DNA of 23,722 nt from a virus. The notes beneath the pieces are model-generated. The model did not search any database and was not told where the DNA came from. It saw only the letters and a list, made by a program, of their open reading frames with translations. Shown one piece after another: positions 2,790 through 23,654 of the stretch; within the stretch, counting starts at the first letter, position 1, and each line of letters begins with the position of its first letter. Where the stretch lies: IMG/VR virus record IMGVR_UViG_3300009155_000271, positions 1-23,722 of that record; one strand, written 5' to 3'. Both the position numbers and the translations under genes were made by a program.

Positions 2790-3791
2790 TTAAAAGAGAG
2801 CAAAGAAGTAGCTTGTATTCGGATTATAGGTGACGATGACAACGCCTTGAGCGCCAGCGGCACCATTCGGGTTTGTTCCGGCGCTGCCACCAGAAGACGC
2901 GCCGCCACCGCCATACAAACCACCGGAGCTACCGGATCCACCATTTTCACCCGCACCGTTACCACCACCGCCACCGCCGCCGCCACCACCACCAGAGCCA
3001 GCAGTTCCTCCAGCCGTAACAGTATATTCAGTTCCAGCCCCACCAATGCCGCCAGTCCCGCCAGCCGTCGGGGTAGTACACGAACCACCGCCGCCACCAC
3101 CCGCACCATTTGTTCCAGTGCTGCCAGTCCCGCCGGGTGAAGTGCCGCCAGTAGCGCCAGCGCCGCCAGAGTAACTTAAGCCGCCAGCGCCGCCCGTTTG
3201 TTGCCCAGTTGTGCTGCCAGCAACACCAGCGCCACCCGTACCTCCACCACCCGCACCGCTAGATCTGTTTACAGTGCCAGCATTGCCCCCGGCAAACCCG
3301 TTGCCCAGATCACTGCCCGAGGAACCGCCGCCAGCACCGCCACTATTGGAAGTGGCACCCCCAGATCCACCACTGCCGCCAGAATACTTCGTAGAGCCAA
3401 CGCCAGATGCAGAAGCGCCACCCGCACCAGCACCAGTTCCGCTTGAAGCAGATCCCCCTTTAGCAAGAGCGCCATCAGCCGCAAGCGTTGGAGCAGAGTT
3501 GGTTGTCTTATTAATCCAAGTATCGCCACCACTAGTGCCTAAGTTCGAGGAAGCGGCAGTACCGCCTGCGCCACCGGATCCGATTGAAATATATACTGTG
3601 GCACCCGCTGTAATTCCTATTGCGCTTACCGAAGAATAAGCGCCGCCTCCGCCCGCGCCACGGGCCGTTCCAGTGGCAGAACGCGCGCCACCACCACCAC
3701 CACCGATAACCCTGATGGTACTACCAGCATCAGTCCAGTCAGCAGGAACAGTCCAAGTAGTTCCTGTTGTAAAGAGAAGCGTAGTCGGCAT
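2790..3791 (-). CDS. Glycine-rich tail protein, likely receptor-binding adhesin (333 aa)
   Basis: A short N-terminal segment (FTTGTTWTVPADWTDAGSTI, residues 7-26) leads into IRVIGGGGGG and then about 280 residues dominated by Gly, with Ser, Ala, Thr and Asn. The chain ends in GAQGVVIVTYNP. The 'TWTVPADW...IRVIGGGGGG' opening and 'GVVIVTY' ending are characteristic of the phage glycine-rich domain family. Similar repeats form polyglycine-II sandwiches in the gp38 adhesin of T-even phages. It lies after the long fibre and a small fibre-locus gene, so a tip adhesin that reads a host surface receptor is the best reading. The start overlaps the upstream stop by one base (TGATG). The frame is unbroken despite GGN repetition. 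Function is inference; the domain type is well supported. Confidence 0.78.
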   Translation of the reverse strand: MPTTLLFTTGTTWTVPADWTDAGSTIRVIGGGGGGARSATGTARGAGGGGAYSSVSAIGITAGATVYISIGSGGAGGTAASSNLGTSGGDTWINKTTNSAPTLAADGALAKGGSASSGTGAGAGGASASGVGSTKYSGGSGGSGGATSNSGGAGGGSSGSDLGNGFAGGNAGTVNRSSGAGGGGTGGAGVAGSTTGQQTGGAGGLSYSGGAGATGGTSPGGTGSTGTNGAGGGGGGSCTTPTAGGTGGIGGAGTEYTVTAGGTAGSGGGGGGGGGGGNGAGENGGSGSSGGLYGGGGASSGGSAGTNPNGAAGAQGVVIVTYNPNTSYFFALF

Positions 3792-4018
3792 CAGACCACA
3801 ACCTCTTCAACGGGAAGCTGGACTGCCTCTTCAAGAGGAGGGGGGTTGGGGTTGGAGAATGTGTTGGTGGAAGGATCATAAACCCAGCCAATATCACAAA
3901 ATTCACCCTCAATTAAGCCAACCAAGATGCAGCCATCAGGCGGCGGGTCTATTGCGGGATCTGCCACAATGACATTAATTACGATCATCGTATTATTATC
4001 CACAACAGCGCAATTCAT
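3791..4018 (-). CDS. Small fibre-locus protein of unknown function (75 aa)
   Basis: A short acidic protein starting MNCAVVDNNTMIVINVIVADP, with GWVYDPSTNTFSNP near residues 44-57 and a Pro/Glu/Val-rich tail. The pattern 'VVD.NN.IVNVIVA ... GW.YDP.T.TF' is one I associate with small proteins or domains found beside tail-fibre genes, where some act in fibre assembly. It sits between the long fibre and the glycine-rich protein and overlaps the latter by one base, so it is probably made with them. No transmembrane segment. I do not assign a mechanism; an assembly chaperone or a small virion component are both possible. Confidence 0.6.
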   Translation of the reverse strand: MNCAVVDNNTMIVINVIVADPAIDPPPDGCILVGLIEGEFCDIGWVYDPSTNTFSNPNPPPLEEAVQLPVEEVVV

Positions 4019-4028
4019 TTTAGCCTCC

Positions 4029-5996
4029 TTATACCTCAGTGGCTACTGCAACCACATCCCACGACGGGATAACAACATTATAAATCAACCCCAAATAAGT
4101 AGTTTTGGAAATCACCGTGGTGGTGGGGAGCGTGACACCAACAGCCCTGTAAATCGCATTATAAGTAAGCGCCCTAGCAGTGCCGTTGTCCTTAATGCGA
4201 ATGATAAGCTTTTGACCATCCAAAGGCGTGCCAGCAGGAACGGCAAAAGCCGCAGCAGCAGCCAGCGCAGTTAGATTGTACTGGTCCGTTGTGGAAACGT
4301 CTGGCGTTGGTGTGGCACTAGAAGCCACGTTGGTTATGCGCGGATTGATGCGACCGACAATAGCCCCAGAAACAGACAACGAACCTGTGACATCGACAGC
4401 AACGGTAGGGGCGGTGACGCCGCCAAACCTTGTGTTGCCATTAAAAGCGTTGTTTGCCGTGGAAGCCGCATAGAAGTTCCAGGCACCTGTAGCAGCAGTA
4501 ATATTGCTATAAAAACCCTGTTGGGTAGTAATGGCCGAACCAACGCCTAGCGAGGTATTAGCAGCCGAAAAATGCCTAAGAGTGGCAAGAGTAAACGCGG
4601 CAACAGCAGTGGCTGGGGCCGAACGAAACGCCTCATACAAGGTAGTAACACCAGACTGAGCAGTCTGAGCCATTACCAACCCGTAAGACGTTGCCGCACT
4701 GCCAGTATTGGTGTTGAAAGCAAGGAGAGTGTCAGCGGCAATCGCACCAAAAGCGTTAGTACCATGAGCACCAGTAGCAACAATTGAAGTAGACACCGCC
4801 CACGTGCTAGTGCCGCTTCGATAGGCATAACCGGTTCCGGTGAGACCTTCAAGCGCCGCCAAGTCATCAGCCAAAGCTAATGTTATGTTGCCGCTTGATG
4901 TAACTGGAGACCCCGAAACAGTGATGCCCGCTGCTGGGGGGGTGATGCCCACTGAAGACACTGAGCCGGTGGCAAGGGTACTGGAGCTAAGAATATCAGT
5001 GCCATCGCAATACACGATAACACGATAACCCTGGGTAATGGTGTAACCCGTACCAGCTGAAGTCTTAACCGTCAGGGTGTATGCGCCAGTTGTATTGTTA
5101 TAAATGGTGTACTGCTGAATTACTGTCGGCAAAATTACGTTGATATTGCCAGTCAAAGCGCCAAAATATGTATGAATAAGGTTAGCGGCTTCAGCCGTAG
5201 TAAGGGTAACATTAGAGCTACCAGCAACGTTCTTGCTAAGAATGGAATAAGCAAAGGTATTAGAACGACCGCGCCCAACCGTGTACCATGTGGATCCTGA
5301 GCAAATAACGAAGCACGACTCGCCGGGGTTTAGAGCAATCGAAGGGGTGGACCCATCAATGGTATCCGGCGCAGTAGGTGTTAGGCTAAGAGCGCCGGTC
5401 CCCTGATTAGACGCCAGATAAAAGAAATTGTTGCCCATCGTGGAGGCAAGAGACATGGTAAACGAACCAGCACCCCCCGTCCACGTAAGAAGGCCCGCAC
5501 GATTAGCCGCCAACACGGCGTAATTAGCCGACTGGGTAGTAACAGTATGAGCGGTATTAAGCGTAGTTGCAGAGACTGTAAGACCATACCCAACAAGCGA
5601 GGATGCGTCTGGGCTAGAAGTACCAGTTCCTAAACCAACTGTGCTGAAAGTGCCGTTGGCTGTAGAATTGTCCGTAAGATAAACGTAGACACCCTGACCC
5701 GCCGTGATAGTTACGATGGCTGTAACGCCATCATTAGCCACGACTTGAAAAGAATTAGAACCTTTATTAACAAAAAGAACAGACGCTCCAGTAGATCCCT
5801 GATTACCGGGGGGCATAATAAACTTAAGACTGCCCGCCGTAGCCGTGACATTCATGATGTCGGCAAGAGGATTGGAGCCGTCAATGGTTCCCGGCCACGT
5901 GTAAGTGGTATTAGCCGAAAGAGTGACGGTAGAATAGCTAGGATTAGAAGCGCTGACCGCAGTACCGCCGAAAATGTCCGTATACGTGTTGGTCAT
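4029..5996 (-). CDS. Long tail fibre / virion appendage protein (655 aa)
   Basis: A long protein rich in Thr, Ser, Ala, Gly and Asn, nearly free of Cys and without membrane segments, typical of trimeric beta-structured fibres. The N-terminus carries a TYTWPGTIDGSNPLADIMNV segment, followed by several repeated beta modules that share motifs such as 'VLFVNKGSNSFQV', 'FFYLASNQGTGALSL' and 'YTIYNNTTGAYTLTV'. The centre has SGNITLALADDLAALEGLTGTG, a phrase common in phage and prophage fibre shafts. The C-terminal part ends in GLIYNVVIPSWDVVAVATEV. No S74 chaperone triad or lectin fold is evident. An AGGA site lies before ATG 5996. Together with the two following genes it likely forms the host-recognition apparatus. 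Confidence 0.75.
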   Translation of the reverse strand: MTNTYTDIFGGTAVSASNPSYSTVTLSANTTYTWPGTIDGSNPLADIMNVTATAGSLKFIMPPGNQGSTGASVLFVNKGSNSFQVVANDGVTAIVTITAGQGVYVYLTDNSTANGTFSTVGLGTGTSSPDASSLVGYGLTVSATTLNTAHTVTTQSANYAVLAANRAGLLTWTGGAGSFTMSLASTMGNNFFYLASNQGTGALSLTPTAPDTIDGSTPSIALNPGESCFVICSGSTWYTVGRGRSNTFAYSILSKNVAGSSNVTLTTAEAANLIHTYFGALTGNINVILPTVIQQYTIYNNTTGAYTLTVKTSAGTGYTITQGYRVIVYCDGTDILSSSTLATGSVSSVGITPPAAGITVSGSPVTSSGNITLALADDLAALEGLTGTGYAYRSGTSTWAVSTSIVATGAHGTNAFGAIAADTLLAFNTNTGSAATSYGLVMAQTAQSGVTTLYEAFRSAPATAVAAFTLATLRHFSAANTSLGVGSAITTQQGFYSNITAATGAWNFYAASTANNAFNGNTRFGGVTAPTVAVDVTGSLSVSGAIVGRINPRITNVASSATPTPDVSTTDQYNLTALAAAAAFAVPAGTPLDGQKLIIRIKDNGTARALTYNAIYRAVGVTLPTTTVISKTTYLGLIYNVVIPSWDVVAVATEV

Positions 5997-7424: not shown

Positions 7425-8061
7425 CGGCAAGACTGGTATGGATCACGGTATAAACCACTGAACCCGTACCCGAAGTGATGGTCAGACGAGTAGCCCTAGG
7501 AATTGTGCTGAAAACAGACTGCTTGCTAGTAGTAGCGCTAACCACGCCAGTATCCGTGGACGAGAAAGCCAACGGAAAGGCAGTAACATAGTTAAACGGG
7601 TCGTCCTGAGAGTATTCGACGGTGTAAGTTACCGTGCCAGTAACAGTACACTGGATGCCGATCGGAGAACCGTAAGCACCGTTGATGTCCATCGGGACCC
7701 AAACAGTGGAACCGGTGGTGTTGGTGCCAACCGTGATCGCGCCCGCCAGAGCGGCTGAAACCACTGCCGAAGTAATGGTGTAGAAATCGCGGGTCGAAGC
7801 GACCGTGCTGGCAGACGGCAGAGTCAGGGTCTCCGTGATGGTGTTACCCTGGATATCCGTTCCGGTAAGCACGAGCGTCTTACCAGTGTCCGCGCCTGCA
7901 GTAGTCGCAAGCACACGGCGCTGGGTGTCCAGAGTAGCGACACCACCAGTGACAGTCGAGCCATTAAGAGTAAGGGCACCAGCTCCCGCAGGGGTCTGCG
8001 AAAGACAGATGTTGGTGGCAGAAGCTGCCACAAGGGCTTTCGTAAGGACTACTGGGCGCAT
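7417..8061 (-). CDS. Virion structural protein with beta-rich module (214 aa)
   Basis: A Thr/Ser/Ala/Val-rich protein with almost no charged residues, as expected for a beta-structured capsid or tail component. Residues 48-100 (RRVLATTAGADTGKTLVLTG, DIQGNTITETLTLP, DFYTITSAV) resemble a stretch in the next gene upstream (8121-9317), suggesting a shared domain. The C-terminal half carries VTYTVEYSQDDPFNY and ATRLTITSGTGSVVYTVIH, again beta-like. It lies between the capsid region and the adaptor, so head decoration, a head fibre or a neck component are all reasonable. No specific family recognised. Confidence 0.6.
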   Translation of the reverse strand: MRPVVLTKALVAASATNICLSQTPAGAGALTLNGSTVTGGVATLDTQRRVLATTAGADTGKTLVLTGTDIQGNTITETLTLPSASTVASTRDFYTITSAVVSAALAGAITVGTNTTGSTVWVPMDINGAYGSPIGIQCTVTGTVTYTVEYSQDDPFNYVTAFPLAFSSTDTGVVSATTSKQSVFSTIPRATRLTITSGTGSVVYTVIHTSLAGA

Positions 8062-8089
8062 GGGATCCCCCTAGGAATGAGAAGGAAGG

Positions 8090-8113
8090 GGGCGCTGGAA
8101 TCAACCAGCGCCC
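8090..8113 (-). terminator. Intercistronic hairpin after the 398-aa virion gene
   Basis: A perfect 9-bp GC-rich stem, GGGCGCTGG (8090-8098) with CCAGCGCCC (8105-8113), and a 6-nt loop. It lies just after the stop at 8121 in the leftward direction. The following transcript is CU-rich and lacks a real U run, so it may act as a partial terminator or as an mRNA 3'-end stabiliser. Confidence 0.5.
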
Positions 8114-8120
8114 GCGTCCA

Positions 8121-9317
8121 TTAGGCATAATACTGAGTTACGCCAAACATGGCAGTTGTACTCAGATTGGTCGATCGAATCGCGTCATACATGGGCAAAG
8201 ACAGCGAGAACACGAGACGTCGAGTACCATCAGTAGAACTCGTGTAGCCAGTACCCGGACCAAGCGTCCCGAGCTGGTAAGTACCCCGAACATCAGTGGA
8301 AGTAGCCGTGCTGGTGGTAGCAGCTGTAACCCAACCAGTAGAAGCAGTCAACTGCAGACCGTTCCAGAACCCACTGGTGTATTCCCAAAATTCAGACTTA
8401 ATGGGAAAACCAATAAGATCCGACGTTCCAATCGAGAAAGTGCCAGTAGACGAGCCACTCTTCGTCGGAGTTACCGACGAAATGTACTTGAACGCCTTGT
8501 TACCGTAAGCAGTCGAATTGGCAGAGACCGAAATAGTCTCCGACATCAGCACGCCATAAATGTCGTACCCACGAACGGTAACCGTCCAACCAGTATCAGA
8601 CGCGTTGTTCGACGTAACCGAAACACCGCGAGTGAGAGTCTGAGTGGGGTCCCAAAGTGACATGGCCCCCGCCGTCGCCATCGGACTAACGGCAAGCCCG
8701 TAGTTCTGCTCAAGATTAAAGAGCGGAAGCGTGGCGCTCTGTCCCGGTGCATCCGCAACCACCAGAGTGGTGCCGGAAACCGACACTACAGTGGTAAACA
8801 GATTAGTGGTGGCCGTAGCACCGCCACCGGGAATCATGATCTTCTGACCGGCATACAAGTACCGAGCCGTAACAGCGCTGGTCAGGGTAACAGTAGTAGA
8901 AGCAGCCGTCGTGGTCACATGACCCGTGCCATAGCCCGGGTCAAGGGCCATAGCATAGACGACGTTGCCGGAAACGGCAGGACTAAGGCCGTACGGGACC
9001 AACGGGGTGCCCGGAGCCACCGAAGTGCTGATGGCCGTAACCAAAGTCATTGCAGTGCCAGAAACAGCCGTCGCAGCTGCTGCGATTTTTGCGGCACCGG
9101 CAGTATGCGGAACCGCATCGATCAGAACGATTTTGGGCGAATGCAGGAAACTGTCAACGCGGCCCAAAGAAGGGGCAGTTTCGCCACCGGCTGAAGCGCG
9201 CGGATCAAGGAACGAAACGCCCTGGAAGAACGCGCTGGGACCCTGCTCATTATCCGAAGTCTGCTGCGGGTTAAGGTTACCAGTGGTAACCAGAGGACCC
9301 GAAAGTTGACTAAGCAT
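8121..9317 (-). CDS. Major virion structural protein downstream of capsid gene (398 aa)
   Basis: The protein begins with a polar segment (QTSDNEQGPSAFFQGVSFLD), followed by repeated beta-rich Thr/Ser/Val/Ala modules and a C-terminal 'FPIKSEFWEYTSGFWNGLQL' segment. Residues about 228-282 match the neighbouring 214-aa protein (DTGWTVTVRGYDIYGVLMSETI versus DTGKTLVLTGTDIQGNTITE...), so both probably carry one Ig-like fold. AGGAGG sits 7 nt before the ATG at 9317; the ATG at 9323 is only one base from that site, so I use 9317. It directly follows the major capsid gene. Decoration protein, head fibre or minor capsid component is likely; no exact family recognised. Confidence 0.62.
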   Translation of the reverse strand: MLSQLSGPLVTTGNLNPQQTSDNEQGPSAFFQGVSFLDPRASAGGETAPSLGRVDSFLHSPKIVLIDAVPHTAGAAKIAAAATAVSGTAMTLVTAISTSVAPGTPLVPYGLSPAVSGNVVYAMALDPGYGTGHVTTTAASTTVTLTSAVTARYLYAGQKIMIPGGGATATTNLFTTVVSVSGTTLVVADAPGQSATLPLFNLEQNYGLAVSPMATAGAMSLWDPTQTLTRGVSVTSNNASDTGWTVTVRGYDIYGVLMSETISVSANSTAYGNKAFKYISSVTPTKSGSSTGTFSIGTSDLIGFPIKSEFWEYTSGFWNGLQLTASTGWVTAATTSTATSTDVRGTYQLGTLGPGTGYTSSTDGTRRLVFSLSLPMYDAIRSTNLSTTAMFGVTQYYA

Positions 9318-9368: not shown

Positions 9369-10283
9369 TTAGAGGCCCGGGGTGCCGTACACGGCGCGGG
9401 GATCGGTCCATCCGGGAATGTAACGCTCCGTTGCCTTGTAGCGCATCGAGTCGGTTTCGAAATCGCCCTCCATGGACTTCTCCATCTTACGACGCCACAG
9501 GACCTTGAGGCCCTCCGGAGCGTCGGTCTGGACCCACCAAGCGGTGTTGGAAGTCAGACGGGAGAGGTTGGCCTGGCCACCCGACAGCATCCCCATCGAC
9601 TTGATCGGGTTGATGTCGTTGTTGTTGGTACCAGTCCGGAGAACGGACTTGAGGAGCACTTCTGCCTGGAACACGTTGCTGGGGGCAACAACGAGCTTCT
9701 GAGGATTCAAACGGATGCGCTTGCCGTTGTTGTCAACAGCGTTACGGATCTGAATGAGCATCTGCTCAAGGCTGGTCTGCGACAGAGCCGCAGCAGTCCC
9801 AAGCTGATTCGAGAAAGTGCCGGAAGCGATCGGGTGAGCGGTGTTGACCAGCGAAACGCCGTCGCCGCCCGTGTACGCGCTGTTGAAGGCGCGGTTCAGG
9901 ACGTTGGCGCAGAGCGTCTCCTTCGTCTCGACCAGCGACTGGGCGAGATGGCGGGAATAGACCTGGCCAATACGGATGTGATCGCCGTCTTCCACCAGAA
10001 CCTTCGTCAGAGCGAAGGCGAGGCCGAAGACCTTGTACACGTAGCGGGCGAGGAACAGCGTACCACCGGCCTGATAGTTAACCGGTGTGCCGTCGGGAAG
10101 CTCAGGGGCCGCACCAAAACCGAAGAGAACCGGCTCTTCGTGATAGTTGCGGGGAATGCCCTTACCCTCGAAGAAGATTTCCTTCCATTCATCGGCACGC
10201 TGGTCGTAAACGCCATCGAATGCCTCGTTAAGCACCGGCTCAACGATAGAACGGAAGTCTGTAGAACGCATGGGAAGTGCCAT
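9369..10283 (-). CDS. Major capsid protein, Mu gpT-like / HK97 fold (304 aa)
   Basis: The order of motifs follows the Mu gpT-type head subunit. A helical N-terminus contains 'FDGVYDQRADEWKEIF', then a basic loop. A spine-like region (GLAFALTKVLVEDGDHIRIG) leads to 'NTAHPIASGTFSNQL' and 'SLEQMLIQIRNAVDNNGKRI', and 'PQKLVVAPSNVFQAEVLLKS' precedes a C-terminal beta part ending with WTDPRAVYGTPG. 'SL....I...D.NG..I...P..LVV' is diagnostic of the HK97-like capsid fold in this group. GGAGGT lies a few bases before ATG 10283. Its place, after scaffold and decoration genes and before virion proteins, is exactly as expected. It would form the icosahedral shell, probably with help from the nearby GroES-like protein. 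Confidence 0.85.
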   Translation of the reverse strand: MALPMRSTDFRSIVEPVLNEAFDGVYDQRADEWKEIFFEGKGIPRNYHEEPVLFGFGAAPELPDGTPVNYQAGGTLFLARYVYKVFGLAFALTKVLVEDGDHIRIGQVYSRHLAQSLVETKETLCANVLNRAFNSAYTGGDGVSLVNTAHPIASGTFSNQLGTAAALSQTSLEQMLIQIRNAVDNNGKRIRLNPQKLVVAPSNVFQAEVLLKSVLRTGTNNNDINPIKSMGMLSGGQANLSRLTSNTAWWVQTDAPEGLKVLWRRKMEKSMEGDFETDSMRYKATERYIPGWTDPRAVYGTPGL

Positions 10284-13497: not shown

Positions 13498-16224
13498 TTA
13501 TTCTCCAATGGTAGAACCGTTTTTGATGTTACCTATCTTGCCTTCCGCTGAGCGCATTTCAGCGATTTCGATAGCCGTTGCATTGTCTTCTTCGTTCTTA
13601 CGAAGCTCAGTCTGAGACTGGAGTTCCTGGATCTTCATCTCGTTCTGAGCACGAAGCATTTCCAGCTCAGCTTCTTCTTGCAGCCTGAGCATCATGCTCT
13701 TCTGCTCCGCATCCAACTCCATTGCCATCTTCTGCTGATTGGCCTGAAGATCCATGGCCGTCTTCTGCTGGTCCATCTGAGCGGTTTGAGCCATCTTCTG
13801 CTGATCAGACTGCGACTGTATGGACAGTTCCTGCTGGTGCTGCTGAGCACGCTGCTGCATTTCGGCAGCGCGAATCTGACCAGTCTGCTGGATTTCCATC
13901 TGCTTGGTCTGATTCTTAGCCTGTTCAGCCTGCAGCTGCATGTTGGCGATCTGAAGCGACGGATCGTTCGCGCCCGGGGGCTGCTGCATAGCCTGACTGG
14001 CCTTCACGAACGTGTCCATGAGGGTCATTACTTTGCCATACACCGCCGGAATGTTCTGGTGCATTTTCTGCGAAATCAGCGCCAGAGTCTTGTCCAACTC
14101 GTTCATAACATCCTGATCATCGGTTACCAGAGTGGTAACGTCCTGACCAGCAACGTGATTCGTAAGCTCCATAGCCGTCTTGGCGTATGAGAACACGATG
14201 TGCTGCTTTAAATGCTCAATAGCAGCGGGCATGAACGTGGGCATCAAAAGGGCGGAATGGCCCATTAGAGGGTCAGTCAGGAAATTCAGATGTACCTGGA
14301 TATGGGCGAAGTGATCCTGATCTGGAAACGCCGTAGCCGGTCGACCCAAAGCCATCGACACATTCTCAGCCACGGGATTCTGGGGCTTGGGGGTCTCTGG
14401 CAGGAGCAGGATTTCGTCAATATTCGGGACCTTCATGGTCTCCAAATTACGGCGAACAATGGCTCGCTGATCGAACAACTGCGGGAACGACTGATTCAGA
14501 GCCAAAATGGCCTGATTCTGGGCGTAGCGCTGAGTTTCGGAGAAGATGTTAGGATCCGAAACCGGCTGAACATCCATAGGGCCGTCGTAGTCGGACTTGT
14601 ACGCTAGGATTTCCCCGGCGTCGTCCATAAGCTCCATCTCGTCCAAATAGTCAGCATTCAAGCGATGCAGGATCTCGAAAGATCTTGCCTGAGCAGCGTG
14701 ATTACGAGCAAAGATAGATGAAAAGACGATAGCGCCCTGTTCTAGAAGCGCGTTGGTGGTGCCAACGGGCATCTGGGAATTAGCGTCCGAGATCTTCTCT
14801 TCTGCGGTGGAAACAACCCCTTTGGCAGAGTCCACGAGGAACCCAAGGAGCTGGAACAAAACAGGGCTGGGCGGATTAAATGGGACAGGCATCGCGTACT
14901 TGCGAATATCCGGGTCAGTTGTGGAATCCGTACCCTGAATTTCGGCCACCTGCGTGGCTTGAATCGAAGTGCTCTGACCACCAACTTTCGCTCCTTTGAG
15001 CTTCAGAAGGGTGGGGGCGTTGTTAATGTGGGCTGAATCCAAAAGCGCCCGCAGAGCGCCAGTAGCCGCCGCCGAGAGCTGGCCAATTAGATGCCAAATG
15101 CCAATGCCCTGAGCGCCACGCCAAGGAATAAAATCATAGGAGGTGATCCAGTCGAGCTTCTTGTACCTCTTGTCATCCTCCTTCCAGTTACGGTAGACGG
15201 CGAGGACTTCAGATGATATGACATCCACCACAACAATGTACGGCGCTGGTCGACCGTCTTTGCGAGCAAGCGGATCTGTCTCGAAGCGATGCGTGATGTA
15301 GATGTTGTAGACCGTACGAACTCCGTCTTGGTTGTACGGGTCAAGGTCGATACCCTCAATTTTATTGTTTGCTTTCTCCGACTTGGAAATTTCCGGCGTC
15401 TGGGTAGCCGCGAAAATATCGACGTCGCGGTAGTAGCCGGTAGCAACCTGATCCTCATAAGTTTGTTGCGTGATGTACTGTCGGTGTGTAATGCGCTCAG
15501 CTGTATAGAAATTGCTAGCCGCTGCCGGAATGATAACGTCGTCGGCGGGAACAAACTCATAATCTGGACGTGCCTCGTCTGAATTCCACCACCAGCGAGT
15601 GTACTGCGACCCCGCCATCGGCTCTTGTGTCAACATCTGCTCAAGCTCAGCCCGATAATTCGGGATCTGATATGTGAGCTGCCAATTCATATGCTGGGTC
15701 TTGCGATTGGCCCTAGCGATCTTATGAAAATTCGGCGTGCCGATAATCTTGCTGCGGACGGGGCCATTCGGTGGGAACAGCTCGCGCATCATCCGCGCTG
15801 AAAAGTCGACGCAGGACTCGGCAATTAGTGGATGGGTAACCTTGTTAGCGCCCGCGAACTCCGCACCACCGGGGGCCGGTTCGCCCAGCCCAGAACGCTT
15901 GATAGCGTCAGCGTACTGTTGGTCGCGTTCTTTGCGGGCATCCAAATCGCGATCGATGAAATCCAAAATGCCGGTAGCGAATTCTTTCAGCTCGTACTCT
16001 TCGATCACGTCTTCCGCGAGATTCTCGGTAAAATCCCCGGCATACTTCTTGGTCTCTTTGATATTGGACTCAATAATTGCCGACCCGTCGTCGTTTTCTA
16101 CGATATGGAATTCGGCATCATCCGGCTCATCGCCATCCATCAAGGGCAGGTCCGGGTTGCCCTCAGCGAACTCGTCATTTTCTCGGCGGTTTCGCAGAGG
16201 ATCCTGGGGGAACTGTACGGCCAT
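13498..16224 (-). CDS. Portal protein, P22-like (about 908 aa)
   Basis: The largest gene encodes the dodecameric portal through which DNA is pumped. The N-terminus is acidic. Then come APGGAEFAGANKVTHPLIAE and 'CVDFSARMMRELFPPNGPVR', typical of P22-type portals, followed by a wing region (DVIIPAAASNFYTAERITHR) and clip/stem segments (LKLKGAKVGGQ; NAQMPVGTT-like DANSQMPVGTTNALLEQGA). The last 150 residues are a Gln/Met/Ala-rich long helix with QQTGQIRAAEMQQRAQQHQQ, as expected for the barrel of large podovirus portals. I prefer ATG 16224, with GAGG 8 nt upstream, over an in-frame GTG at 16242. P22's portal is about 725 aa, so this one is long. It stands downstream of terminase and four miniproteins. 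Confidence 0.88.
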   Translation of the reverse strand: MAVQFPQDPLRNRRENDEFAEGNPDLPLMDGDEPDDAEFHIVENDDGSAIIESNIKETKKYAGDFTENLAEDVIEEYELKEFATGILDFIDRDLDARKERDQQYADAIKRSGLGEPAPGGAEFAGANKVTHPLIAESCVDFSARMMRELFPPNGPVRSKIIGTPNFHKIARANRKTQHMNWQLTYQIPNYRAELEQMLTQEPMAGSQYTRWWWNSDEARPDYEFVPADDVIIPAAASNFYTAERITHRQYITQQTYEDQVATGYYRDVDIFAATQTPEISKSEKANNKIEGIDLDPYNQDGVRTVYNIYITHRFETDPLARKDGRPAPYIVVVDVISSEVLAVYRNWKEDDKRYKKLDWITSYDFIPWRGAQGIGIWHLIGQLSAAATGALRALLDSAHINNAPTLLKLKGAKVGGQSTSIQATQVAEIQGTDSTTDPDIRKYAMPVPFNPPSPVLFQLLGFLVDSAKGVVSTAEEKISDANSQMPVGTTNALLEQGAIVFSSIFARNHAAQARSFEILHRLNADYLDEMELMDDAGEILAYKSDYDGPMDVQPVSDPNIFSETQRYAQNQAILALNQSFPQLFDQRAIVRRNLETMKVPNIDEILLLPETPKPQNPVAENVSMALGRPATAFPDQDHFAHIQVHLNFLTDPLMGHSALLMPTFMPAAIEHLKQHIVFSYAKTAMELTNHVAGQDVTTLVTDDQDVMNELDKTLALISQKMHQNIPAVYGKVMTLMDTFVKASQAMQQPPGANDPSLQIANMQLQAEQAKNQTKQMEIQQTGQIRAAEMQQRAQQHQQELSIQSQSDQQKMAQTAQMDQQKTAMDLQANQQKMAMELDAEQKSMMLRLQEEAELEMLRAQNEMKIQELQSQTELRKNEEDNATAIEIAEMRSAEGKIGNIKNGSTIGE

Positions 16225-16251
16225 AATGGGGTCCTCGTGCACGAGTAAGAC

Positions 16252-17156: not shown

Positions 17157-18548
17157 TCACGCCGCATACGGGTTGGCCAAGTCGTTCACGTCGTCGTCCA
17201 CGTAGTCCTCCCATTCGGGGCGGATCGTCTCGACTCTGACGAATTCGTTGTTCGAGAGGTGCTTCATCGCTTGCGTAGCCACGTCCACATAGTCGTCATT
17301 TTGTGCATAAGGAAAGGTACAAAGCTGCGTAATAAATGGCTCCACCCAGTCTCTTGGGGATCCGCGCCGGACCATGGACTCCGGAACATAAAAAGCCCCA
17401 TTCGCAAACAGATGTGACACCGCATGCGCACGCTGAACCTTATCGGCGCGTCCGGGATTGTATGAACGAATCGGGAGACCGGCGATCCGCAATTCTTGCA
17501 TGAGGCTGAGACCTGAGCCTTTGGCCTCGATGAGCACAGCATCTGGTCGTCTGGGTGGTGTTCCATACTCTGAATTATACTCTTCTATGGCCTTCTTCCG
17601 CAATTCTGGGAATTCAAGCTTCTCCGACCAGCAATCGAGGAGCATTACGCCCCATTTCCCATACTGGTTCGGTATTTGGAATGCCCCAAATGTGGCATAC
17701 GCGGTGGGGTCCGAATGGGTCCGCTGCGTGAAGGCGGTATCCCAGGATTGCACGATATATTCCAAGCGGGGCAGGGCCTTTTTCGCGGGCCATAGCTTGA
17801 ACCATTTGCGCTTGAAGATACCGGCGTTCTCCATATCCAGGAGTTCGCCGTAGATCTCTTGCCGCCCCAGCTCGGTCCCTTCGTACTGCGTGATCTCTTT
17901 GAAGAAGCTCGGAGCGAGGTGCTTCTTATTCTCATGGGTCGAACCGGTCGTGATAATAATCCCCGACTCCTCCGGACCCTTTGTCTTCCACTTGTTCACG
18001 ATGGTCGAGATAATCGGAACCGGCTTGGGGGTGGTCGTCAGTATCTTCTGGGGGCCTTTCCCGGAGGGCGACACCAATCGCAGCCCAAAATTCAGCATGT
18101 CCATAGTGTCCGGGTGTTCCCACGCGGCCACCTCGTCGCACCATGCGCGATGGAACTGCGGGCCGCGCAGACGTTCCGGCTCCGTCGCCACAAATCCGAA
18201 ATACATCGTGCCGTTCACGAGGGTCAGCTCGGCGGTTGACCGGTTGTACTTCTGGATCATCTTCCCCGGGAGTCGACTGATGATACCCGAATCACCCTCG
18301 AAGCACACCTTTTGTACGTCCGCGAAGGTCGGCGCTACCACGGCTATACGGGTCTCCGGCTCGTTAACCCCGTACCAGACCACATCTTCCGCGCCCAAAC
18401 GGGTCTTGCCAAACCCGCGACCCGCCATTACGAGCCACGTGTTCCACCACTCCCCGGGCGGGGTCAGCTGCTTGGCCCGCGCCTCTTCGAGCCACGCCAT
18501 CCGTCGGCGTCCCATTTCCAGTCGGAGGTCTACGGCGATCTGTCCCAT
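17157..18548 (-). CDS. terL: Terminase large subunit (463 aa)
   Basis: This is the DNA-packaging motor and headful or site nuclease. Walker A is GRGFGKT at residues 43-49, with W38 upstream as in the COG5323/GTA-like group (GEWWNTWLVMAGRGFGKT). Walker B with the catalytic Glu is HRAWCDE (133-139). The coupling motif is TTTPKP (171-176). The RNase H-like nuclease part has SWDTAF with D270, IEAKGSG with E341, and NDDYVD near 417-422 for the third acidic residue, so all three catalytic positions look present. Length is usual. The start overlaps the small-subunit stop as TGATG. The enzyme docks on the portal encoded downstream. Confidence 0.92.
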   Translation of the reverse strand: MGQIAVDLRLEMGRRRMAWLEEARAKQLTPPGEWWNTWLVMAGRGFGKTRLGAEDVVWYGVNEPETRIAVVAPTFADVQKVCFEGDSGIISRLPGKMIQKYNRSTAELTLVNGTMYFGFVATEPERLRGPQFHRAWCDEVAAWEHPDTMDMLNFGLRLVSPSGKGPQKILTTTPKPVPIISTIVNKWKTKGPEESGIIITTGSTHENKKHLAPSFFKEITQYEGTELGRQEIYGELLDMENAGIFKRKWFKLWPAKKALPRLEYIVQSWDTAFTQRTHSDPTAYATFGAFQIPNQYGKWGVMLLDCWSEKLEFPELRKKAIEEYNSEYGTPPRRPDAVLIEAKGSGLSLMQELRIAGLPIRSYNPGRADKVQRAHAVSHLFANGAFYVPESMVRRGSPRDWVEPFITQLCTFPYAQNDDYVDVATQAMKHLSNNEFVRVETIRPEWEDYVDDDVNDLANPYAA

Positions 18549-21114: not shown

Positions 21115-21115
21115 G

Positions 21116-21148
21116 AAATCGGGGGGAAATCGGGGGGAAATCGCGGGG
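21116..21148 (+). repeat. Tandem 11-bp G-rich repeat, possible G-quadruplex
   Basis: AAATCGGGGGG occurs twice (21116-21126, 21127-21137), followed by the variant AAATCGCGGGG (21138-21148), just before promoter 2. The runs of 6, 6 and 4 Gs, with nearby GGGG on either side, could fold into a G-quadruplex in DNA or in read-through RNA. Confidence 0.65.
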
Positions 21149-21158
21149 AACAAAACCC

Positions 21159-23617: not shown

Positions 23618-23654
23618 CCCCCCCCCCCCCCCTTTATTTTTTTTTTTTTTTTTT
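23618..23654 (+). other. C15 and T18 homopolymer runs near the window end
   Basis: Fifteen Cs (23618-23632) are followed after TTTA by eighteen Ts (23637-23654). The next bases are AT-rich, then GC-rich, unlike the preceding genes. Runs like these are typical of read or assembly error at contig ends, though a real low-complexity genome end cannot be excluded. Confidence 0.6.

Follow-up and report, generated by a model that had tools for sequence, protein, structure and literature searches.

A glycine-rich TNF-like protein with a C-terminal hydrophobic tag, a candidate exchangeable head of a phage tail fibre

The window, that is, the whole stretch of DNA analysed here, comprises the 23,722 bases of a linear virus record, with the structural genes on the minus strand. 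The minus-strand genes include the large terminase (17157-18548), the portal (13498-16242), the capsid (9369-10283) and a 655-aa tail fibre (4029-5996) that matches phrog_12796 (tail fiber) and phrog_3030. Behind the fibre gene lies a small ORF of 75 aa (3791-4018, minus strand), the stop codon of which overlaps the ATG of a gene for a Gly-rich protein (2790-3791, minus strand). An endolysin and a holin are listed after the Gly-rich ORF, the adaptor is encoded at 947-1594, also on the minus strand, and a further structural protein is listed after the adaptor. Among cultured phages, the best matches of the adaptor are Caulobacter phages (50%), and the capsid gene is 76% identical at the DNA level to that of Caulobacter phage GB2A. 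Eleven base differences separate the window from a near-identical contig (L003/L083): five are clustered at 4608-4614 within the fibre gene, one is at 5273 and five are near the end of that contig. Elsewhere, an 11-base unit is repeated in tandem at positions 21115-21150 (3.3 copies, 96% matches) with the top Tandem Repeats Finder (TRF) score of the window, and a C run followed by a T run near the right end (23618-23654) may be an artefact of the assembly end.

The Gly-rich ORF is open over 333 codons from an ATG start to a TAA stop, and 119 of its 333 residues are Gly. The Gly-rich stretch extends from about residue 30 to residue 316 and is flanked by a conserved N-terminus (TWTVPADW...) and a likewise conserved C-terminal strand (GAQGVVIVTY), in agreement with the first-pass annotation, which had described an intact frame of about 1 kb and Gly-rich sequence between a conserved N-terminal segment and a beta end. 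No PHROG was assigned to the protein, and its score against the Pfam family PF21722 (Gly_rich_2) is 10.3 bits, below the curated cut-off of 24.3. The family nevertheless matches 10 of the 23 rows of our alignment at E up to 0.01, and one relative, L090, exceeds the cut-off with 24.8 bits.

Relatives were found by an IMG/VR search in 28 viral loci, two of which (L082 and L083) are copies of the window phage. The alignment of 23 rows, window included, defines one conserved domain of roughly 250-340 residues, and the other 22 rows are 37-68% identical to the window protein. The domain occurs alone, at the head of longer proteins (L085, L090 and L093) or in two or three copies per protein (L098, L101 and L102). 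The earlier expectation that the frame is under selection is borne out by dN/dS values of 0.12-0.17 across six pairs. In six close relatives, the Gly positions of the window protein are conserved at 0.81 and the other positions at 0.48, and insertions and deletions occur mostly at the tips between the Gly runs. The loop comparison proposed by the first-pass annotation thus reveals variable tips, set between Gly runs that are themselves mostly constant. A direct tblastn search of named phages with Gly-rich queries gave no matches, for which the low-complexity filter is the likely cause, so that the result does not speak for absence. Further Gly-rich relatives were seen in passing. L107 encodes a Gly-rich domain (7902-8864) after a signal peptide apparent by eye, possibly a secreted cellular relative, and six bacterial contigs (L139-L144; Bdellovibrionaceae, Cupriavidus, Bauldia, Alphaproteobacteria, Patescibacteria and an uncultured bacterium) contain relatives that may be either prophage-borne or cellular.

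AlphaFold2 prediction on the 23-row alignment yields a model with a pLDDT of 92.8 and a pTM of 0.91, in which the last residues are the part of lowest confidence (55 for the last block). The protein is predicted to be a TNF-like beta-sandwich carrying a Gly-rich lattice of the kind found in the fibre protein gp24 of cyanophage Pam3. The sandwich is formed by strands within residues 3-136 together with the last strand (residues 317-322), and the Gly-rich extensions form the lattice. The closest solved structures, as identified by Foldseek and VIA-align, are Pam3 fibre gp24 (PDB 7ypx and 7yfw; Z 18.6, rmsd 2.2 Å over 191 residues), which shares both the TNF-like and the Gly-rich parts, followed by chain Q of the tail-tip structure of mycobacteriophage Bxb1 (PDB 9d93; Z 14.9, rmsd 4.1 Å over 201 residues), which is 18% identical to the window protein in the Foldseek alignment and 34% identical over the VIA-aligned residues. 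A search of PDB sequences with the alignment profile returned just the two Pam3 fibre entries at E up to 1, the better at 5e-7 with a strong composition bias, and a single-sequence phmmer search of the PDB gave just a weak, composition-like match (E 0.058). The Gly-rich domain of animal ALK/LTK has a like general layout, with Z of 7.1-7.7 over 129-134 residues, below the level that the aligner itself trusts; the likeness was already remarked for Pam3 (PMC9608196, available portion). In the BFVD, matches at E up to 0.001 comprise 209 viral models, and most of the 50 listed are from uncultured Caudovirales.

The comparison also suggests differences in how such proteins may attach to the virion. 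According to the available portion of PMC9608196, Pam3 gp24 is found in virions, docks to the baseplate through its own N-terminal helical domain and carries tips that are proposed to bind the host. The window protein, by contrast, has no N-terminal helical docking domain of the Pam3 type: its model starts at the sandwich with a strand at residues 3-7, contains no helix before residue 127, and bears a C-terminal tag instead. Its Gly-rich part also looks larger, about 287 residues counted from the first to the last Gly run with strands included, compared with the 125 given for Pam3. Similarly, gp38 of phage S16, a protein separate from the fibre that presents Gly-rich motifs and variable loops at the fibre tip, is described in the available portion of PMC6851490 as attached through a bundle of N-terminal helices that bears three Trp, and as carrying a beta-helix, and those N-terminal attachment helices are absent from the window model. 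The first-pass annotation had called the protein a polyglycine-type adhesin; the folds closest to the model are TNF-like and Gly-rich, and the entry 6F45 of S16 gp38, a three-layer polyglycine II sandwich on a beta-helix, does not appear among the Foldseek and VIA-align rows, an absence that excludes nothing. Polyglycine 'brush' domains have been predicted for mycobacterial siphophages as Gly-rich tail-tip parts with a proposed role in host binding (cited in PMC13243795), and the descriptions in the available portion of that article do not mention a shared C-terminal attachment tag.

The window protein ends in ...TSYFFALF, in which SYFFALF (residues 327-333; 2793-2813, minus strand) follows the linker NPNT and is proposed as a docking peptide. 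Stand-alone Gly-rich proteins tend to similar hydrophobic ends, such as SYFFALF, SNFFMLF and GNFFLLFK. Three tag patterns were used, one fixed beforehand and two, strict and loose, written after the ORFs of the fibre loci described below had been viewed; the window tag fits the prefixed and loose patterns and not the strict one. The prefixed pattern matches 22 of 1,505 ORFs, namely 19 Gly-rich proteins (11 distinct) and three copies of one MANRYWVGG protein. The tagged Gly-rich genes sit behind a fibre gene that ends in a common domain of about 110 aa, hereafter fibCT, which in the window comprises the C-terminal 110-115 aa or so of the fibre (4032-4376, minus strand; phrog_3030, E 3e-21) and is the proposed docking site of the tag; phrog_3030 matches 13 of the 15 aligned fibCT copies. 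Among 42 complete Gly-rich ORFs scored with the strict pattern, tag and fibCT occur together in 12, the tag alone in none, fibCT alone in two (L133 and the window, the tag of which is of the loose pattern) and neither in 28, a table that is partly circular because the fibCT model was built from fibres beside mostly tagged proteins. The Gly-rich domains of L085 and L088 are 90% identical; the tag is present on the copy behind fibCT and absent from the one joined to a long repeat region. The L113 record holds two untagged Gly-rich genes, and no fibCT was found in it. As a separate observation, L085 carries two Gly-rich genes in one phage record (8001-10499 and 12528-13337), one fused to a long repeat region and untagged, the other short, tagged and behind a fibCT fibre.

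Since the fibCT model derives from the same fibres, an independent test was needed, and IMG/VR was scanned with the fibCT alignment alone. This yielded at least 80 loci (79 with a fibCT ORF), of which 67 carry a complete downstream ORF of at least 150 aa within 1 kb, 61 of them distinct. The prefixed pattern matches 40 of the 61 distinct downstream ORFs and none of the 196 other complete ORFs of those loci, and the broader patterns match 46 and 49 of the 61 against 0 and 1 of the 196; the loci are related rather than independent, so that Fisher values for these contrasts are too small and overstate the evidence for the association. In loci fetched through the adaptor, one of 365 ORFs of at least 150 aa, cut ORFs included, matches the prefixed pattern, and this single match (L058 and copies) proved to lie directly behind a fibCT fibre. 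In the near-identical records G015 and G016, the fibCT and Gly-rich match was found before the C-terminus had been seen; the protein ends in NFNFFAFFNGA, the three extra residues of which place it outside the tag patterns, and in G015 a 66-aa ORF lies between fibre and head. The loose pattern fails in 12 of the 61 ORFs, namely six MSYY[PS]LIS proteins, L171, L176, L203, L213, L221 and L222, and in L221 the tag is on a later ORF instead. The MSYY[PS]LIS proteins (L159, L166, L172, L188, L189 and L190) are 253-275 aa long, stand behind fibCT fibres and lack a tag of the usual form; one of them, L159, has a match to a virion structural PHROG. On the tree of the Gly-rich domain, the loose labels, among which L128 is a probable false positive, require nine changes of the tag. 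The well-supported branches supply four independent pairs; on average, fibCT agrees with the tag in 3.7 of them, and no pair runs the other way (p 0.125), a test too small for significance alone.

The fibCT domain was modelled with a pLDDT of 86.9 and has no sequence relative in the PDB (best E 0.22). Its fold matches are weak, with a best Foldseek E of 0.004 and all Z at or below 8.4; they include a region of the Solidus tailspike (8.4), the Pa223 capsid spike (8.2) and TSP4 of CBA120 (7.6-7.9). By residue numbers, the TSP4 match spans XD1, which is described as a spacer in the available portion of PMC8825819, and it is therefore not taken as proof of docking. These matches hint that fibCT may be a trimeric appendage domain. 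The N-terminal part of the fibre (residues 4-347; 4956-5987, minus strand) is 35-43% identical by BLASTP to tail proteins of backbone relatives (L004, L005, L007, L010, L110 and L111), and no fibCT was found in the whole records of L005, L007, L010, L110 and L111. Of 20 backbone relatives searched whole, 18 are without the Gly-rich domain, 17 without fibCT and 17 without both; the three with fibCT are L057 and L060, each with a Gly-rich domain, and L061, the tagged protein of which is the same MANRYWVGG protein as the match from the adaptor loci. Conversely, in the phages with the most similar Gly-rich proteins (L084, L085, L087, L088 and L094), the adaptors are just 23-32% identical. Taken together, the backbone kin without fibCT or Gly-rich domain and the distant adaptors of the Gly-rich kin make the fibre end and the head look as if they had been acquired together.

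Behind fibCT, the tag is borne by heads of several kinds. Clustering by phmmer of 69 heads trimmed of their last 30 residues (60 of the 61 ORFs, the later ORF of L221, seven heads of named phages and the window) gives 18 clusters, 15 of which have at least one member tagged by the loose pattern; the clusters are defined by sequence, and several may share a fold or remote ancestry. Besides Gly-rich and MANRYWVGG proteins, the heads include minor tail proteins of phrog_553/2106 and an F5/8C-like head in L160 (DUF5000 39.5 bits against a cut-off of 25; F5/8C 27.1 against 28.2). The largest cluster unites Gly-rich and MANRYWVGG proteins, probably because some proteins, such as that of L241, bear both domains. 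Among 154 pairs of IMG/VR loci with fibCT at least 75% identical, the heads are clearly different in 21, with tags on both sides in 17 and on neither side in four; 14 of the 17 pair the Gly-rich head of L179 with others, mostly MADRYWVGG/MANRYWVGG, at a fibCT identity of 76-83%.

Tagged ends were likewise observed in a set of cultured phages, comprising 16 records chosen from match lists. The heads end in TGNFFFMF in Methylophilaceae phage P19250A (gp21), NGTFFAFF in Tsukamurella phage TPA4 (orf29), AGNFFAFF in Mycobacterium phage Journey (gp21), AAFFALF in Streptomyces phage Kromp (gp22), GNFFPLIMA in Tonenili, GNFFPLIAA in Lukilu and QNFFPLIAA in ten I3-type Bixzunavirus records. The fibres of Lukilu and the I3-type phages are 98-99% identical, whereas their heads are at 33% in a forced global alignment and match locally over just 39 residues, yet share the end NFFPLIAA; similarly, the Tonenili fibre is 88-89% identical to those of Lukilu and the I3 type and its head is at 32-33%. 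Since phrog_553 is matched by the I3, Tonenili and Lukilu heads alike, these swaps are replacements within a remote family and no proof of unrelated folds. The head of Mycobacterium phage Lukilu (L235, 1856-3034) is 392 aa long, as against 202-210 aa in the other Bixzunavirus records seen, and adjoins a nearly identical fibre.

The window protein has a predicted Gly-rich lattice of the Pam3 and Bxb1 kind, and its gene directly follows that of a tail fibre. It is therefore likely to be an adhesin of the fibre tip, and in this respect the adhesin assignment of the first-pass annotation is supported, although the change by slippage that it attached to the adhesin is disfavoured. We consider it probable, judging from the model and the sequence comparisons, that the Gly-rich protein serves as a receptor-binding head docked to the end of the fibre by its C-terminal tag, and that such heads are interchangeable. 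The head would sit at the fibre tip with its tag inserted into the fibCT domain, and the variable tips between the conserved Gly residues would touch the host surface. Heads might be exchanged between phages because compatibility with the fibre would depend on the tag alone. The main sources of new host specificity would then be the replacement of entire heads and alterations of their tips, and not slippage of Gly codons.

Other explanations of the tag and of the fibre were weighed against this reading. The tag may ride with fibCT in a recombination cassette and serve another role, either recognition by an assembly chaperone, perhaps the product of the small ORF, or closure of the head trimer. 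Small ORFs indeed lie between fibre and head in many loci, and the assembly of Pam3 gp24 involves a chaperone, gp25 (PMC9608196, available portion). Relatives of the 75-aa ORF are located directly upstream of Gly-rich genes in L085, L089, L090, L096, L117, L120 and L122, a 66-aa ORF is placed likewise in L241, and the sole PHROG match of the window ORF is phrog_14370 (unknown function, E 0.003); a chaperone or assembly factor is a possible assignment for it. However, no small ORF is found between fibre and tagged head in L084, L087, Tonenili, I3, TPA4, Journey and Kromp, and the tag is common to many head clusters, so that a function in the folding of a single head type is unlikely; we regard this explanation as rather improbable. 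Somewhat more doubtful still is that the fibCT fibre is a capsid or neck appendage and that the Gly-rich head decorates the head region, with docking by the tag kept. The Bixzunavirus fibCT gene lies behind a gene annotated as head decoration, and the Pa223 capsid spike is among the better fold matches of fibCT; against this, the first 340 or so residues of the window fibre are common to proteins of relatives annotated as tail protein or tail fiber protein, Journey gp20 is annotated as a minor tail protein and matches the Douge central fibre through residues 150-478, not fibCT, and the fibCT gene of P19250A comes after a gene for host specificity protein J.

Contact of the hydrophobic tag itself with host lipids or membrane, as a part of receptor binding, appears very unlikely. 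The tag is strongly hydrophobic, and the mycobacteriophage brush domains are said to expose hydrophobic patches (PMC13243795, available portion), but it is shared by phages that infect Methylophilaceae, Mycobacterium, Tsukamurella and Streptomyces, hosts with very different envelopes, and it tracks fibCT rather than the host. We give least credence, and very little of it, to the proposal of the first-pass annotation that slippage in GGN and CCN repeats diversifies the adhesin and sets host range. The coding sequence is Gly-rich, the tips are variable, and the window departs from both L085 and L088 in the length of the long Gly run at about residues 267-277, with deletions at 277 in relatives. 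Yet the long chain of imperfect repeats that had been reported dissolves under Tandem Repeats Finder into arrays of at most 34 nt with scores of at most 45, and the DNA is thus mostly degenerate Gly codons, not a long slippery array. At a dS of 0.52, L085 and L088 differ in their shared domain by a single gap, of one codon close to the N-terminus, with no insertion or deletion in any Gly run, and the five other pairs have 2-8 small gaps each, mostly between Gly runs; the window and its two near-identical contigs show 0 differences in the gene. The low dN/dS, the few gaps in Gly runs and the short arrays argue for purifying selection on a folded domain and make slippage unlikely as the main route of change, the run at about 267-277 being an exception to otherwise mostly stable Gly runs.

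Docking of an interchangeable head through its C-terminal tag is therefore the reading that we retain for the window protein. In a more general form, on which we are evenly divided, fibCT of the phrog_3030 type would accept any head with an aromatic/aliphatic tag of 5-7 residues, roughly (G/S/N)-F-(F/L)-x-(L/M/F)-F, and would allow one-gene swaps across phages of Pseudomonadota and Actinomycetota; the head families would then comprise the Gly-rich TNF-like, F5/8C-like, MANRYWVGG and phrog_553 proteins. Among the matches listed in searches of the open-access literature, no description of a shared C-terminal head tag was found, and the available portions of the reports on Douge (PMC13033339), on Claus, Corndog and Mysterious (PMC13252515) and on LSH1 (PMC13243795) hold no shared C-terminal docking tag of this sort; the hub protein of Mysterious has a C-terminal anchor loop of another kind (PMC13252515, available portion). 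The fast sequence change of receptor-binding proteins makes them difficult to identify. If our reading is correct, it would explain how a protein without the attachment domains of Pam3 gp24 or S16 gp38 could be retained on the virion, and gene position together with the C-terminal end would suffice to find heads, even ones that no annotation has called adhesins. The tag would then locate such proteins in phage genomes that lack annotation, and one could follow how distant phages exchange host specificity.
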